A stretch of DNA of 34,112 bases from IMG/VR virus record IMGVR_UViG_3300046522_000644, positions 1 to 34,112 of that record; one strand, given 5' to 3'. The notes beneath the pieces were generated by a model. That model was not told where the DNA came from and searched no databases. It saw only the letters and a list, made by a program, of their open reading frames with translations. The first letter of the stretch is position 1. Each line of letters begins with the position of its first letter. Source of the DNA: a virus. A program made the position numbers and the translations under genes. This document shows positions 21,362 to 34,112 of the stretch, in pieces.

Positions 21362-21907
21362 ATGAACATTGAACAATATCTTGAAGAATTGATTAAACGC
21401 GAAGGTGGTTACGTGAATAACCCTGCTGACCGTGGTGGCGCAACTAAGTACGGTATTACTGAAGCAGTTGCTCGAGCAAACGGGTTTAAAGCCAGTATGA
21501 AAGACTTACCTCTTGAGGTGGCCAAGTCTATTTATCGTAAACAATACTGGATCTCACCGCGTTTTGATCAGGTGAATGCCGTTTCTTCTGCAGTAGCTGA
21601 AGAGTTATTAGATACCGGTGTGAACTGTGGTACCGGCTTTACAAAACCACTTTTACAGCGTGCATTAAACCTACTGAATAATCAGGGTAAAGCAGGGTGG
21701 TCAGATTTAACTGTTGATGGAATTTATGGTCCAGCGACATTAAATGCACTAAAAACTTTTCTGGCCAAACGTGGGAAAGATGGGGAGAAGGTTTTGCTTC
21801 GAATACTCAACATCATGCAAGGCCAGCGTTACATTGAAATTTGTGAACGTAATCCAAGCCAAGAACAATTCTTTTACGGTTGGATTGCTAACCGAGTTTC
21901 ATTATGA
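21362..21907 (+). CDS. Endolysin, glycoside hydrolase family 108
   Basis: The 181-residue product has the GH108 signature IKREGGYVNNPADRGGATKY with catalytic Glu14 in EGGY. The C-terminal part (VDGIYGPATLNALKTFL to ERNPSQEQFFYGWIANRV) is the PG_binding_3-type domain that accompanies it. It cleaves the glycan backbone of peptidoglycan to release progeny. AAAGGAAAG sets the start. Its stop overlaps the ATG of a 32-codon lipoprotein gene (ATGA at 21904-21907). Diverged copies of its 3' end occur at 24046-24111 and 28714-28825. Confidence 0.9.
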   Translation: MNIEQYLEELIKREGGYVNNPADRGGATKYGITEAVARANGFKASMKDLPLEVAKSIYRKQYWISPRFDQVNAVSSAVAEELLDTGVNCGTGFTKPLLQRALNLLNNQGKAGWSDLTVDGIYGPATLNALKTFLAKRGKDGEKVLLRILNIMQGQRYIEICERNPSQEQFFYGWIANRVSL

Positions 21908-24045: not shown

Positions 24046-24111
24046 ATTGAAATCTGTGAGCGCAACCCAAGCCAGGAGCAATTCTTTTATAGCTGGATTG
24101 CTTCACTATGA
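24046..24111 (+). pseudogene. Endolysin 3' remnant, copy 2
   Basis: This segment still encodes IEICERNPSQEQFFYSWIA, in line with the endolysin end ERNPSQEQFFYGWIANRV, but the 5' part of the gene is missing. Third-position changes throughout and a 9-base deletion before the stop show that it comes from a diverged relative and not from recent copying of 21362-21907. The ATGA overlap with the lipopeptide gene is preserved. Confidence 0.85.
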
Positions 24112-24206
24112 AATTTCTGGTTTTGCTGTGCATTCTATTTTCAGGATGCACAGCTCATCCTATAAGTACAAATGTGAATACTTCTATTTGCGTTAGATCA
24201 CTTTAA
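24108..24206 (+). CDS. 32-residue lipopeptide, second full copy
   Basis: MKFLVLLCILFSGCTAHPIS... keeps the signal, a standard lipobox (LFSGC) and the 19-residue mature peptide ending NVNTSICVRSL. It differs from the copy at 21904 at many codons but has the same length. Its upstream endolysin is gone, so it would need read-through from 23667 to be translated. Retention of an intact frame suggests either recent arrival or selection. Confidence 0.65.
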   Translation: MKFLVLLCILFSGCTAHPISTNVNTSICVRSL

Positions 24207-24210
24207 AAAA

Positions 24211-24237
24211 ATCCCTGATTTCTCAGGGCTCAGTTTT
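24211..24237 (+). terminator. Terminator after lipopeptide copy 2
   Basis: CCCTGA pairs with TCAGGG around TTTC. The following tract is CTCAGTTTT, so efficiency is doubtful. The hairpin is closely similar to the one at 25280-25305. Confidence 0.6.
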
Positions 24238-24867: not shown

Positions 24868-25214
24868 TTACAAACTCAATTTTAATGATGGATCAAATTT
24901 CCATGTTTCAACTTGTAGTTCTGGATCTGCTCGGCAAGTTCCTTGGCATCCATCTGGAATTGCTATTACATCACCATTTGCATCTGTACAGATCACAACA
25001 AAAGTTTCATAGAGCCAATCAGGATTCCTTTTATCAATGTTCATCAACTCTGCTGTTAATCCTACTTGCATCTCTCCAAAGCCATAGCTGTTATGAGGGT
25101 AGACTTCACCTAAGTTAAGATAAAAGGATAAGAGGTTTTTTCTATAAGCCCATACACCATGCATTTTTTCTTCAAATACAATAGATGCAACGATCTGAGG
25201 ATCTATTACATTTG
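24868..25214 (-). pseudogene. Truncated transglycosylase-like effector
   Basis: Open from a stop at about 25221 down to 24868; the ATG at 25164 is internal to the homologous region. The visible part reads NVIDPQIVASIVFEEKM, then HNSYGFGEMQVGLTAELM, matching the intact effector's VDPLAVGSIIFQEKFF and RSYGLGEMQLGLAADLL. The presumed catalytic Glu is kept but the whole N-terminal delivery part is missing. Past ETF the C-terminus differs from the intact protein and lacks its HNAGEKG segment. The truncated end abuts the lipopeptide remnant at 25216, so one recombination event probably cut both. Could still be translated from 25164 as a 98-residue fragment. Confidence 0.75.
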
Positions 25215-25215
25215 A

Positions 25216-25275
25216 TGCTCAGCTAATACGATCAATAGCAATGTGAATGTATCAATCTGCGTTAGAGCACTTTAA
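25216..25275 (+). pseudogene. Lipopeptide 3' remnant, copy 3
   Basis: Encodes only CSANTINSNVNVSICVRAL and stop, i.e. exactly the mature lipopeptide from its lipid-bearing Cys, with the signal peptide replaced by unrelated sequence. It joins directly to the minus-strand effector fragment. The downstream terminator is the same type as after copy 2. Confidence 0.8.
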
Positions 25276-25279
25276 AAAA

Positions 25280-25305
25280 AGCCCTGAGGGATCAGGGCTA
25301 TTTTT
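25280..25305. terminator. Bidirectional terminator
   Basis: AGCCCTGA pairs with TCAGGGCT around GGGA. Ts follow on the plus strand (ATTTTTG) and a seven-base A run precedes it (Ts on the minus strand), so it can end both the lipopeptide remnant and the minus-strand lipoprotein gene at 25308. Confidence 0.85.
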
Positions 25306-25307
25306 GT

Positions 25308-25937
25308 CTAGTTTTCAAATTCCACATTATAAAGGGATGTTAAAGATGCCTTTAATTTTTCATCTTTAGTTTCTGCAATGTACTCTTGCATTTTCTCTTT
25401 ATACTCAGGGTGTCCAGCTTTATATTTTGCATACAAGTATGAGAACTCGCCTATCTTATAATCAGGGTCGGTCTTGTTTTCGGGTTTATCTAGTTCCACT
25501 TTTAGAACTTCTGCAACGTGGTCATAGCACTTATTAACCAAAGTACTTTCTTTCTTTTGTAAAGTTAGTAGCTGACATCTAAATGTAAGTCTTGCTGTGT
25601 CATTTGGTTTCTCTGCAAGTTGCTTATCATTCAATGCTTGTGCTTCTTCATATTTTTGCAAAGTCATGTAGATATTCATTTGCATAAATTCACGTTTTTT
25701 CTTATCCGAAATCTTACTGACTTCGGGCAATACTTCTACCATCTTTTTTTGAAATTCTTCAAAGTTACCCTCGCGGTAATATTTAAAGTAACTTTCATAT
25801 TTATCAATGATTTTCTGATCTTCGGCAGATATCAGCTTAGGTGCTGTGATTTCGCTTTGTTTTGTACTATCCGAAGCATTGCTACAGCCACCAAGAAATG
25901 ATGAATAAACGATAAATAGGGTTAAATACTTTTTCAT
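25308..25937 (-). CDS. Predicted helical lipoprotein
   Basis: The 209-residue product has lipobox FLGGC at residue 18, a short linker, then an almost entirely helical domain with TPR-like repeats (EAQALNDKQLAEKPNDTARL; KCYDHVAEVLKVEL). It lies downstream of the effector-immunity operon on the same strand but is separated from it by a terminator and a perfect palindrome, so it is probably a separate unit. It could be an additional periplasmic immunity protein. The function is not recognised. Confidence 0.65.
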   Translation of the reverse strand: MKKYLTLFIVYSSFLGGCSNASDSTKQSEITAPKLISAEDQKIIDKYESYFKYYREGNFEEFQKKMVEVLPEVSKISDKKKREFMQMNIYMTLQKYEEAQALNDKQLAEKPNDTARLTFRCQLLTLQKKESTLVNKCYDHVAEVLKVELDKPENKTDPDYKIGEFSYLYAKYKAGHPEYKEKMQEYIAETKDEKLKASLTSLYNVEFEN

Positions 25938-26068: not shown

Positions 26069-26512
26069 TTATGCTTCTTTAGGTTTATGTTTAATATTCA
26101 ATAATATGAATAAAATGGTATAAATAAGTAAGGAAATAAGCCACAGAATTAAATAAATATTTTGATCGAATTTAATAGTATTTATAACAAGTTGGTTGAT
26201 TGGATCACTTTCAGCTAAAAATGCGCTTAAAAATAAGAAGATATAAACAAAAAAACCTATTCTTAAAACATAAGTTATATTTTTAACAAAGAACATAATA
26301 AGGCCAAGTACGACACTTATAATTCCAAAGAACCATATTAAAACACTATCGTCATCTGCTGAGCCTTGCATGTCTCTTAAATAAATATATTCATCTACGC
26401 CGTAAGGGGCAAAAGTCACAAATCCTTTAGATAAGGATTCAAAGCAAATGGCTAAAATGCCCGATACTATCAATACGATAGCCAAGTAATATTTTAAGTT
26501 TAGAGTTTTCAT
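26069..26512 (-). CDS. Four-span membrane immunity protein candidate
   Basis: The 147-residue product has spans at about residues 8-25, 57-76, 82-100 and 120-140, and an external loop (GVDEYIYLRDMQGSADDDSV). The ATG overlaps the stop of the effector gene by four bases (26509-26512), the tight coupling usual for toxin-immunity pairs. A paralogue at 24445-24864 stands in the same relation to a truncated effector. For a periplasmic peptidoglycan-cutting toxin an inner-membrane protein with a periplasmic face is a reasonable antidote. Inference from position and duplication; no family recognised. Confidence 0.7.
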   Translation of the reverse strand: MKTLNLKYYLAIVLIVSGILAICFESLSKGFVTFAPYGVDEYIYLRDMQGSADDDSVLIWFFGIISVVLGLIMFFVKNITYVLRIGFFVYIFLFLSAFLAESDPINQLVINTIKFDQNIYLILWLISLLIYTILFILLNIKHKPKEA

Positions 26513-27507
26513 ATTCCTGTATATCCTTCCCCAGCTTTCCAGTATTTATGCAATGTGCGTGGGGTTGCGGTACATGCTTCACAATTATCCGGTTTAGAAT
26601 AAATAATACCGTTTAAAGCTTGTTTAATGGATTCTTGCCAATTTCTTGATCGATTATAAACTCTAGAGGGACTATCAAAACTAGCCTTATTAGTTGAAGG
26701 ATCCAGATAAGAATCTAAACCCTTCTCACCAGCATTGTGCAGTATTGTAGCTTCCCTAGGGGTGAGCTGGCGGCCTAATTTTAATTGCTTTAAAGAAATA
26801 TTCTTAGCGACAAGATCAGTTGCTACTTGAGGGTCGTTAGTGATGAGGTCAAATGTCTTTCTAAGCCTATTTGGGTCACTCTCCAGATAACCTAGCAGAT
26901 CTGCGGCCAAACCTAATTGCATTTCACCAAGTCCATAGCTTCTATGAGGTTTAACGCCTCCGCGGTCTTTCGCATATGCAATATAGTTCTTGGCGATGGC
27001 TGCTGCTGAAAAGAATTTTTCCTGAAAAATAATTGAACCAACAGCCAACGGATCCACACCATACTTTGCTGCGGAGGTATTAATGGCTGCATTGTAATAG
27101 GCAACCATATTTAAGCCATCCGGTGCTGGTACTGAACGATTAACCATAACATGATCAAGATTGTGGTCTTTTTCTTGGCTAGTTTTATGAGCAACTAATT
27201 TAACTTGATGTACTGTGTGCGTTACGCTACTGCCTGATTCTTTCGTGTATGTAGTGCCAACGAAAGGTTGGGGCTCTAACAATCTACCAGTCGGCAAGTA
27301 CACATTAAATCGAACAGTACAGTTTTTAGCATTTTCATTTTTCTGAAGTGGGAAACTTGTCTCTACAGATATACCTGAAGGGTTGATTTTCAACTTGCCC
27401 GTTTCAAACTTTCTACCAGTATCTTGCGCGATAAATAAAGCAGAAAATGAGAAGTTGGTATAATCGCCTAATCCTCTTAATCTCAACTGTGCATAACATG
27501 TACTCAT
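26509..27507 (-). CDS. Lytic-transglycosylase-like effector of T6SS type
   Basis: The 332-residue protein has two parts. Residues 1-120 are beta-rich with no signal peptide, fitting delivery by a carrier. Residues about 135-310 have the features of soluble lytic transglycosylases: VDPLAVGSIIFQEKFF with candidate catalytic Glu163, SYGLGEMQLGLAADLL at 190-205 (cf. the G-L-M-Q-l-x-p-x-T-A motif), and EATILHNAGEKG (cf. A-Y-N-x-G). It would cut the glycan strands of a rival's cell wall. It overlaps the VgrG-fragment gene upstream and the immunity gene downstream by four bases each (ATGA). The lack of a secretion signal and the VgrG piece point to T6SS. A phage lysozyme role is the alternative. Confidence 0.72.
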   Translation of the reverse strand: MSTCYAQLRLRGLGDYTNFSFSALFIAQDTGRKFETGKLKINPSGISVETSFPLQKNENAKNCTVRFNVYLPTGRLLEPQPFVGTTYTKESGSSVTHTVHQVKLVAHKTSQEKDHNLDHVMVNRSVPAPDGLNMVAYYNAAINTSAAKYGVDPLAVGSIIFQEKFFSAAAIAKNYIAYAKDRGGVKPHRSYGLGEMQLGLAADLLGYLESDPNRLRKTFDLITNDPQVATDLVAKNISLKQLKLGRQLTPREATILHNAGEKGLDSYLDPSTNKASFDSPSRVYNRSRNWQESIKQALNGIIYSKPDNCEACTATPRTLHKYWKAGEGYTGI

Positions 27508-27875
27508 TCTGTGTCTTCCTCACTTGGCGGCACAGGATCCGGATAATCATGGTTCTCTAAAAGATGGAAAGACATTTGTTCTTCTTTCTGGGTATATATC
27601 CGTTGAGTGTAGCCATTTTCATCAGTCATACCTTCAAATTGCCTACCTGATTCTGATATTGCGAAATATGCTTTATTTTTATAGGGTGCATTTTGATTAT
27701 CAATTAATTGAACACTTAAATTAAATATACCTTTACTTTCGGGTAATACTGGAAAGTGGCTAACAACTTGTTCACCCGACTTGAATATATGTTGACCAGC
27801 TTTAACCTCAAATTTACCTCCCGTTATTATCGTAATACCTTTATCATTAATTACAATACGTGAACCACCCGCCAT
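27504..27875 (-). CDS. Free-standing VgrG C-terminal fragment with transthyretin-like domain
   Basis: The 123-residue product starts MAGGSRIVINDKGITIITGG then KFEVKAGQHIFKSG, which is the end of the DUF2345 region of VgrG. The remainder (GIFNLSVQLIDNQNAPYKNK ... SGRQFEGMTDENGYTQRIYT) looks like the transthyretin-like extension that some VgrGs use to hold effectors. The start Met is the native Met of that VgrG segment; a stop codon lies in frame three codons upstream (TAA, AAA, AGT, ATG), so no longer VgrG exists here. It is unclear whether it is a remnant kept by coupling or an independent adaptor. The overlap with the effector start (ATGA) supports co-translation. Confidence 0.75.
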   Translation of the reverse strand: MAGGSRIVINDKGITIITGGKFEVKAGQHIFKSGEQVVSHFPVLPESKGIFNLSVQLIDNQNAPYKNKAYFAISESGRQFEGMTDENGYTQRIYTQKEEQMSFHLLENHDYPDPVPPSEEDTE

Positions 27876-27947
27876 ACTTTTTTATTCTCAAATTTAAATT
27901 TATGTGATTAGAATAACATAACTTGTTTAAACTCAAAAAATACACTT

Positions 27948-28649
27948 ATGACCATGATTGTTTCGGCGCATCTCGGAGATTGTATACTGATTGCCGCTGA
28001 TAAAAGAGCGATGGTATATGATATAAACTCTGGATTATTAAGAATATCTCATGATGATGAGGCGAAAATAAAGTTATGGTGCCGTGGTGCTATTACAGGC
28101 ACAGGAGACAGTTTATTTATAAATCGTATAATGAATTATTTTGAAAATTTAACAGAACAAGAACAAAAACTTGAACAAGTGAATGCTATTCAAATGGAAA
28201 TAGAAAGAAGATTGTCTGAAGGGGTTCCAAAAGAGCTTCTTTCTAATAATACGCTTATATTCTCAATATTTAATGGCTGTAAAACCTCATTATATATAAT
28301 ACCCATACAGCCATTTTTTGAGACATTTAAACTTGGTAGTCGCGAACATTTAAGGTCCCAAGTTAATGAAATTAAAGAATGGACCATAGAGGTATGCTGT
28401 TTAAATATTCCTTCCGATTTAGCATTATTACAAGACTTCCAGCGCAATTTAAGGAGCTTAAATAGCTTTGAAAGTGAGGGGCAATTCATTAGTTACTATA
28501 TAGAGCATTTAAAGACTATTTTTGCGAAACAAGCTTCTATAGATACTAGTGTTACACCGTCTTTTGACCTGTATTTACAATCATGTGAGACTGGAGGTAG
28601 CTTTGCCATTCATATTGAGAACAACTTTTTAACAACTTCAAATGTGTAA
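27948..28649 (+). CDS. Proteasome-beta/HslV-like Ntn hydrolase
   Basis: The 233-residue product begins MTMIVSAHLGDCILIAADKR, close to HslV (MTTIVSV...) and proteasome beta subunits. If Met is removed, Thr1 would be the nucleophile, Asp falls exactly at position 17, and the KIK at 39-41 follows as the K-I motif; the next segment, GAITGTGDSLFINRIMNYFE, resembles the G-x-x-x-D strand-helix of the family. Length fits a beta subunit. No unfoldase gene is nearby, so it may work alone or with host HslU or Clp. It is divergent from the T6SS-type operon across a 72-base gap. Activity is inferred, not shown. Confidence 0.6.
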   Translation: MTMIVSAHLGDCILIAADKRAMVYDINSGLLRISHDDEAKIKLWCRGAITGTGDSLFINRIMNYFENLTEQEQKLEQVNAIQMEIERRLSEGVPKELLSNNTLIFSIFNGCKTSLYIIPIQPFFETFKLGSREHLRSQVNEIKEWTIEVCCLNIPSDLALLQDFQRNLRSLNSFESEGQFISYYIEHLKTIFAKQASIDTSVTPSFDLYLQSCETGGSFAIHIENNFLTTSNV

Positions 28650-28678: not shown

Positions 28679-28713
28679 GATTAACTAAGTTATTTTTGGC
28701 TCGAAAGAATTAT

Positions 28714-28825
28714 TTGGCCAAACGTGGGAAAGAAGGCGCGAAATTTTTAGTCTGAGTTCTCAACATTATCCAAGAACAGCGTTACATCGAAATCGGTGAA
28801 CGTAATCCCTCTCAGAAGCAATTCT
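28714..28825 (+). pseudogene. Endolysin 3' remnant, copy 4
   Basis: Reading in one frame gives LAKRGKEGAKFLV, a stop, then VLNIIQEQRYIEIGERNPSQ. This aligns with the endolysin's LAKRGKDGEKVLL...RYIEICERNPSQ. It has an in-frame TGA, lost both ends, and differs at many bases, so it is an old relic of another endolysin. No lipopeptide part follows. Confidence 0.85.
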
Positions 28826-28897: not shown

Positions 28898-29674
28898 TTA
28901 CTTAAAAATTAATGCTCTCGAAACACGAATAGAATCATATAGAAAATGATTAACTTCGGTATTTAGAGCTGGATGAAAGTCAGGTATGGTCTGTTCAAAG
29001 TTTGTAGGTATAGAAAAACGACTAATATATAATGGGATTAAATATCTCTCATCGTAAACAATAATATTTCTTTCATCTCCCGAACTGCACAAAACCAAAG
29101 CTGATTCACCTAATTGTAAATAAAATTTAAATCTAAATCCTGATCCATCATCATCAATAATTTGATTTTCATATAATTCTTGCCAACCATCTAAATGATT
29201 AATACTGAAAATTTTGTCATTTAAAAATGGTGTTACAAAGAGATAGACATTTTCTGAAGGTTTTTTTGTTTTAAAAAAATCATGATAAAAGTTTAATTTT
29301 TTTTCTTTGAAAGAGCTTGGACCAGTAGCGAAGAAATTTAGAAAAATCTTATATATAAGAATTCTTAGTTTTTCTACACACTCTCGATTTAGAAAGTCTT
29401 TAGGATCCTTCCCATCTATCATAACTTCTAGGAGATCTTTGCATGATTCATCAATATCACATAACCATCCATTATTACAGGATGCACAAACTTTATGGGT
29501 AAAAGTGTGTGGAATAGGAGTTGTTGGCTTAAAGACTTCAAGATTTTCTGATATTGAAGTAAAAGATAACTGCTTTTTTTTAATATCTAATTTTTTTATT
29601 ACCCATTGAGGAATAACATGTTCATTTGTTTTTTCTTTACCAGAAATCTCAGTTTTGCAATAAATGCATTCCAT
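28898..29674 (-). CDS. HNH endonuclease-like protein
   Basis: The 258-residue product has Cys3-x2-Cys6, NEHVIPQW with Glu18-His19, and KVCASCNNGW with Cys63-x2-Cys66-Asn67. That is the C-x-x-C ... E-H ... C-x-x-C-N layout of HNH nucleases with a structural zinc. The remaining 180 residues have no motif that I recognise and could bind the target. It lies 68 bases downstream of the papain/transglutaminase-like gene on the same strand. Such HNH proteins occur in phage-defence loci, in toxins and as phage homing or packaging nucleases; here the accessory setting favours defence or toxin, without proof. Confidence 0.65.
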   Translation of the reverse strand: MECIYCKTEISGKEKTNEHVIPQWVIKKLDIKKKQLSFTSISENLEVFKPTTPIPHTFTHKVCASCNNGWLCDIDESCKDLLEVMIDGKDPKDFLNRECVEKLRILIYKIFLNFFATGPSSFKEKKLNFYHDFFKTKKPSENVYLFVTPFLNDKIFSINHLDGWQELYENQIIDDDGSGFRFKFYLQLGESALVLCSSGDERNIIVYDERYLIPLYISRFSIPTNFEQTIPDFHPALNTEVNHFLYDSIRVSRALIFK

Positions 29675-33687: not shown

Positions 33688-34012
33688 ATGTAATGAGCAT
33701 ATAAAAACTAGAAAAATAATATTTTTATGCTTTTGTAATTCCTATCAAATATCAGTACAAAAATGACTCCAATAGATGTAATGTCTAGATGGTTATTTAC
33801 ATGAAAATTACAACATCTTAAAAAAGAAATCTTTATATAAAGCTTCAAAATAGATGTTGTCACTTATGTCAGTAAAATGATTATTAGATTTAACTGTTTT
33901 GCAAGAATTTTGCATTTATTTTGCAGGACATCGAAATAAATCTAATAAACTTAAAATTAATCAAATAGATATGGAATTTCTAAAATATTTATTCTTTATG
34001 GAGAAAGAATAT
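33688..34012. other. AT-rich gap between prophage end and permease gene
   Basis: No coding frame of note. It holds a 9-bp inverted repeat (ACAACATCT at 33810-33818, AGATGTTGT at 33852-33860) and the phased TTTTGCA repeats listed separately. The permease promoter is presumably here, but no good sigma-70 pair was found. Confidence 0.5.
33897..33925 (+). repeat. Three TTTTGCA repeats at 11-base spacing
   Basis: TTTTGCA begins at 33897, 33908 and 33919, exactly 11 bases apart, so all lie on one face of the helix. They are about 90 bases upstream of the GntP-type permease start. Confidence 0.75.
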
Positions 34013-34112
34013 ATGTGGGAATTATTTGTAATTCTACTTTCGCTTGGGCTGTTAATGTACACAGCTTACAAGGGTTTTTCCGTCATTCTCATGGCACCAA
34101 TTTGTGCCTTAC
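34013..34112 (+). CDS. GntP-type gluconate/organic acid permease, 3' end outside window
   Basis: ATG 34013 has GGAGAAAG upstream. The 33 visible residues (MWELFVILLSLGLLMYTAYK, then GFSVILMAPICAL) match the first span and the Y-x-G-F/Y-S-V-I-L-x-A-P segment of the GntP family, proton symporters for gluconate and related acids. This is ordinary chromosomal content and indicates that the prophage ends between 33658 and here. Confidence 0.7.
   Translation, partial: MWELFVILLSLGLLMYTAYKGFSVILMAPICAL

Follow-up and report, generated by a model that had tools for sequence, protein, structure and literature searches.

A proteasome-like threonine hydrolase gene paired with a detached VgrG tip, a probable accessory of split-spike T6SS effector cassettes

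The stretch of DNA analysed here, called the window throughout, is IMG/VR virus record IMGVR_UViG_3300046522_000644 in its full length of 34,112 nucleotides. It reads as an Acinetobacter prophage, given its phage tail genes, a phage lysozyme gene (21362–21907) and host-like DNA at its right end, where positions 33984–34112 are 95% identical to a citrate-transporter gene. A cargo region is positioned between the lysozyme gene and a cluster of small genes. It includes a cassette (Table 1) in which an open reading frame (ORF) for a 233-residue protein with the N terminus MTMIVSAHLGDCILIAADKR diverges from a short ORF that matches positions 118–150 of the 151 in the Pfam DUF2345 model, which we call the detached VgrG tip, VgrG being the spike protein of the type VI secretion system (T6SS). 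A homologue of the putative effector encoded after the tip adjoins the same module at another locus (L062). The module formed by the Ntn gene, the tip and the effector is prophage cargo.

Table 1 Features of the Ntn–tip–effector cassette in the window
Feature	Position	Strand
Predicted Ntn (T1, proteasome-like) hydrolase, 233 aa; Thr2, Asp18, Lys40, GTG (oxyanion region)	27948..28649	+
Divergent intergenic region, 72 bp, separating the start codons of the Ntn gene and the tip ORF	27876..27947	
Detached VgrG tip: last DUF2345 strands (MAGGSRIVINDKGITIITGGKFEVKAGQH) and putative transthyretin-like effector dock	27504..27875	-
Putative T6SS effector, lysozyme/transglycosylase-like by motif	26509..27507	-
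Putative membrane immunity protein, from position and hydrophobicity	26069..26512	-
Putative lipoprotein, possible second immunity protein	25308..25937	-
Decayed copy of the phage lysozyme 3′ end, closing the cassette	28699..28825	+
Copy of the sequence that follows the lysozyme 3′ end, forming the opposite cassette edge	25214..25299	+

The 3′ end of the lysozyme gene, or the sequence downstream of it, is repeated in partly decayed form at 24046–24230 and at both edges of the cassette, with three cargo blocks lying between. Cargo was therefore apparently added stepwise, cassette by cassette, at the lysozyme tail. The preceding block holds, at about 24982–25296 on the minus strand and including ORF 24868–25164, a decayed relative of the cassette's effector (39% identity over 105 amino acids, with stops), apparently an older effector that was displaced. 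Just past the cassette, ORF 28898–29674 (minus strand) has a weak, sub-threshold match to HNH_5 (E = 0.005).

An initial annotation had read the 233-residue product as a lone threonine protease of the proteasome-β/HslV type, pointing to an N-terminal threonine, an aspartate at position 17 after methionine removal, a lysine motif and a GTGDS segment. The active-site residues hold up well. Threonine is residue 2 (1 without Met), aspartate is residue 18 (17 without Met), the GTGDS segment lies further on, and the lysine stands at residue 40, six residues past the canonical K33. In an alignment of 22 relatives, reaching down to 22% identity, M1, T2, I4, D11, D18, K40, S106 and Y184 are invariant. 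Across 41 non-redundant copies, one of which has serine, Thr2 is written with all four threonine codons; serine replaces the N-terminal threonine at loci L067 and L065. The invariant residues and the use of all four codons indicate that the Thr/Asp/Lys pattern goes beyond chance.

Structure prediction gave a proteasome-type Ntn fold. AlphaFold models of the window protein (pLDDT 76.5) and of an Acinetobacter guillouiae relative (pLDDT 88.9, pTM 0.86) both matched 20S proteasome β-subunits and Anbu in Foldseek searches with probability 1.00 and TM-scores up to 0.64, Anbu being among the best matches to solved structures (0.63). A profile comparison with Anbu/HslV aligned T2, D18 and the lysine of the family, although the match was weak overall (24.7% probability), and one relative reached the phage 'HslV family' PHROG at E = 0.001. 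The window protein itself had no significant family in Pfam, NCBIfam, PHROGs or PADLOC, and sequence searches of the PDB returned noise or weak proteasome matches. Given the models and the aligned T2, D18 and lysine, a proteasome-β/Anbu-like sandwich fold is well supported, and Ntn-hydrolase activity, predicted from that fold and the conserved active-site residues, is likely.

With the window protein alone as query, no matches were found among viral and genome contigs. Relatives came first from Acinetobacter plasmids, a phage contig and a Vibrio plasmid, and alignments of plasmid relatives were needed as queries to recover the wider family from viral contigs and genomes. The Ntn modules occur on plasmids and prophages. 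Surveys of the class (369 genomes) and of the Vogesella order (200 genomes) added no carriers beyond the centre genomes, which indicates that the family is mostly confined to Moraxellaceae. One Acinetobacter genome (G076; for example, loci L044 and L066) has seven family matches, six long and one a fragment. Two plasmids bear 5′-truncated Ntn genes and no tip ORF (L007, 3004–3273; L008, 3001–3264), the second with an effector and an immunity gene still beside the truncated gene. The relative on a Vibrio parahaemolyticus plasmid (L005), also with no tip ORF, lies near recombinase genes, an IS110 transposase and an S-type pyocin-domain gene. A protein of Bacillus phage phi3T (L006, 3001–3234) shows weak N-terminal similarity (48% over 43 residues), and its annotated start lacks the threonine.

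The neighbourhood survey contradicts the description of the gene as lone. The Ntn gene diverges from a tip ORF in 59 matches (41 non-redundant), at a spacing of mostly 50–130 bp (median 87 bp), and genes for variable antibacterial-type effectors, together with putative immunity genes, lie downstream of the tip. Other parts of the initial annotation are confirmed here, namely the neighbouring effector operon, the setting in a mobile cassette and the lack of an ATPase partner adjoining the gene in the window. The tip ORF lacks the gp27/gp5 spike body and has a start codon of its own, often with an AGGT-like ribosome site. The exceptions to the divergent pair are the Vibrio plasmid gene, the phi3T gene, the two 5′-truncated plasmid copies, L017 (at a contig end), L058, L063, L064 and a Moraxella locus in which the tip is downstream of the Ntn gene on the same strand; no tip was detectable beside the Ntn gene on the Vibrio plasmid, in L058 or in L064. 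A reverse search with the tip covered 119 Acinetobacter genomes, adjacency being counted by hand from a comparison of positions with an Ntn search of the same genomes. Among the matches listed, 28 of 29 separate tip ORFs adjoin an Ntn match and no full-length VgrG does so; about five further short fragments among them appear to be vgrG genes cut short or to lie at contig edges. The Ntn gene and the detached VgrG tip are thus a near-obligate pair, and the gene is no lone protease.

Several observations connect this pair to the T6SS. In Moraxella lacunata, the Ntn gene and the tip follow hcp, tssE, tssF and tssG, in that order and all co-directional, with the four T6SS genes confirmed by Pfam. 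TssB was detected in 21 of 25 Ntn-positive versus 48 of 94 Ntn-negative Acinetobacter genomes (Fisher p = 0.003, with species not independent), which leaves four Ntn-positive genomes with no TssB match. The modules have the make-up of a T6SS effector cassette, with a VgrG-derived carrier bearing a VgrG-type dock and then effector and immunity genes, the immunity roles being putative and assigned by position. The genes after the tip belong to many unrelated groups, among them Ntox15, Tox-REase-5, LysM with peptidase M15, GH19, VRR-NUC and DUF2515. This gene association, together with the co-variation described below, makes it probable that the Ntn enzyme serves as a T6SS accessory.

Within the modules, a constant head carries a changing load. 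Across 38 modules, identity between Ntn proteins tracks that of the 34-residue tip (Mantel r = 0.66) more than that of the rest of the tip ORF (0.30). Two pairs of loci illustrate this: L001 and L056 share 87% identity in the Ntn protein and 100% in the tip but 22% in the rest of the tip ORF, and the corresponding values for L025 and L104 are 89%, 97% and 31%. The dock, effector and immunity gene are therefore swapped directly after the tip while enzyme and tip co-vary. The docks of detached tips match the C termini of full VgrGs at 53–75%, so the same effector dock occurs in two settings, either at the end of a full VgrG or on a detached tip accompanied by an Ntn gene.

Such swapping would also be expected of a silent cassette, in which the tip ORF is a DNA homology arm for recombining effector–immunity genes into the 3′ end of a chromosomal vgrG, with the Ntn gene carried along as a passenger or serving a role unrelated to the spike. 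Effector exchange by itself could retain the tip, and the occurrence of identical dock types on full VgrGs and of modules on plasmids and prophages fits this explanation too. However, the tip ORFs retain their own start codon, often with a ribosome site, and tip protein sequences group apart from those of VgrGs (0.69 among orphans and 0.77 among VgrGs, compared with 0.59 between the two). The near-obligate pairing with the Ntn gene also speaks against it, as does the relation between enzyme clade and tip start set out next. We consider the silent cassette unlikely, while giving it real weight.

The start of the tip is fixed with some precision. Full Acinetobacter VgrGs read ...KEIVLT/AGGSQ...TT/GGKFE...KAGQH (slashes mark the junctions discussed here), and most detached tips start with M-AGGSQ, exactly at the AGGSQ column; extra residues precede this motif in Alkanindiges tips, as a short N-terminal extension, and perhaps in A. 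gerneri. Tips are 61% identical to the resident VgrG in Moraxella, 70% in Vogesella and about 61–64% in Acinetobacter, compared with 15–39% across these lineages. The Moraxella and Vogesella tips are thus closest to the local VgrG, yet their start column is unchanged. A second, shorter form starts later, with M-GGKF, M-AGKF or M-SGKF, and the Ntn proteins of the four short-tip loci that could be placed form one clade (support 98/95, on long branches). That the Ntn clade predicts the tip start suggests that the enzyme and the N terminus of the tip work together. The threonine codon ACG is one step from ATG, so the start boundary by itself is no proof of cleavage, and a structural strand boundary would likewise fix the start column.

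We favour, with a probability of roughly 0.55, the reading that this threonine Ntn-hydrolase is a dedicated accessory of a split-spike T6SS effector cassette and serves detached VgrG tips. The cassette would carry the last part of VgrG (the final DUF2345 strands and the effector dock) as a separate ORF, with no full vgrG, and the detached tip would join a VgrG encoded at another locus of the same cell. The substrate of the enzyme is a more tentative matter. The fixed start column makes the junction between VgrG and tip a candidate, though one less likely than not; in that case the enzyme would cut VgrG at or near the boundary between T and AGGSQ (or, for the short form, between T and GGKF), and the detached tip with its effector would then replace VgrG's own end. 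In A. baumannii the T6SS cannot assemble without the C terminus of VgrG (PMC6960284); a shortened VgrG would therefore have to be given an end. The tip might attach non-covalently or through transpeptidation, the reaction performed by Connectase. Ligation by the Ntn enzyme, suggested by that analogy, seems improbable to us. We are equally sceptical of the complete scheme, in which the enzyme would cut VgrG between Thr and AGG (or GGK) and join the detached tip and dock in its place post-translationally.

The co-variation of enzyme and tip would equally fit a protease that degrades tips. The Ntn protein could thus be a regulator, or a quality-control protease that clears tips or spikes left without a load or shields the producing cell, as its proteasome-like fold and its divergent orientation, common among control genes, might suggest. 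Against this, no unfoldase partner is encoded nearby, none of the Moraxellaceae genomes tested, Acinetobacter included, has HslU above the cut-off, and the Moraxella gene runs co-directionally with T6SS structural genes; we regard this role as rather unlikely. Maturation of the effector or dock, for example by removal of a leader, instead of action on VgrG, would account for the presence of the Ntn gene in the same module. The enzyme is constant across unrelated effectors, however, and tracks the tip above the rest of the tip ORF, and because the effectors vary so widely we judge effector-specific maturation improbable. Still less probable is a catalytically dead Ntn fold acting as a chaperone or adaptor for the tip. 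Several modules do have no other recognisable chaperone, but Thr2, Asp18 and Lys40 are invariant across divergent members, and modules with a DUF4123 chaperone also retain the Ntn gene. Finally, the proposal of the initial annotation, an HslV-like protease acting alone to degrade proteins of the host or of rivals, or else an effector of defence, is scarcely credible: it draws on the fold and the N-terminal threonine only, none of 22 family members had a PADLOC hit, HslU is missing from the Moraxellaceae genomes tested, and the gene is paired with a VgrG tip, stays constant while effectors change and sits in a T6SS core operon in Moraxella.

Under the complete scheme, a single spike protein could take up effectors encoded on plasmids and prophages that do not bring a vgrG of their own. 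The accessory reading assigns a definite function, open to test, to a family of proteasome relatives, perhaps one already described without function or genomic context. It also points to a split-spike, plasmid- and prophage-borne form of T6SS effector delivery, with a possible part for a protease or ligase in loading the spike. Should the junction chemistry also prove correct, a secretion machine would be assembled post-translationally in a new way.

Among known proteins, HslV shares the fold and the N-terminal threonine. The HslV half of the first assignment nevertheless falls, whereas the proteasome-β half stands in the form of a proteasome-β/Anbu-like fold. HslU was above the cut-off in 0 of 11 Moraxellaceae genomes, with Vogesella the only positive (1 of 12 genomes), and the Acinetobacter carriers tested mostly have a separate Anbu gene. 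Proteasome and HslV models gave 0 Pfam hits for the window protein, and the best relative, at E = 0.009, was below the Pfam Proteasome cut-off. Anbu resembles the family in its M-T start, its aspartate and lysine and its fold, but the family is a separate one with a different gene context. Membership of Anbu was ruled out by the genuine Anbu gene present separately in most of the Acinetobacter carriers tested, the profile match being the weak one given above.

The cassettes also recall the orphan effector–immunity modules of T6SS, Rhs and CDI systems, in which displaced C-terminal pieces with immunity genes occur on mobile DNA. Unlike these, the Ntn cassettes combine a tip ORF that has its own start with an enzyme gene that is constant and divergent. 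In sequence, tip and dock resemble the C-terminal DUF2345–TTR region of Acinetobacter T6SS VgrGs (PMC6960284, PMC6838775), from which they differ in that the tip is a separate short ORF, nearly always starting with AGGSQ or GGKF. Connectase, too, is an Ntn protein of the proteasome type that acts without a ring partner, and two family members give weak hits to the N-domain model of connectase (E = 0.06). Both family models, however, contain the first helix pair, which is absent from Connectase (PMC8665760), and no KDPGA motif is known in the family.

The closest description may be that of Fuchs, Alva and Lupas (2021), who reported 22 new families of proteasome homologues, including GPH (Gammaproteobacterial Proteasome Homolog; representative WP_152342571.1), for which they found no genomic context hinting at function and which they linked to Firmicute clusters (PMC8665760). 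Like GPH, our family is small, proteasome-like, mostly gammaproteobacterial and without an AAA+ partner, and the Firmicute link fits its sole weak outside match, the Bacillus phage phi3T protein. The open-licence literature yielded no paper linking proteasome-like or Ntn proteins to the T6SS, or on VgrG cleavage. Compared by description and distribution, the Ntn family may well be GPH; the link to the T6SS appears to be new for such proteasome homologues, GPH having been described without one.
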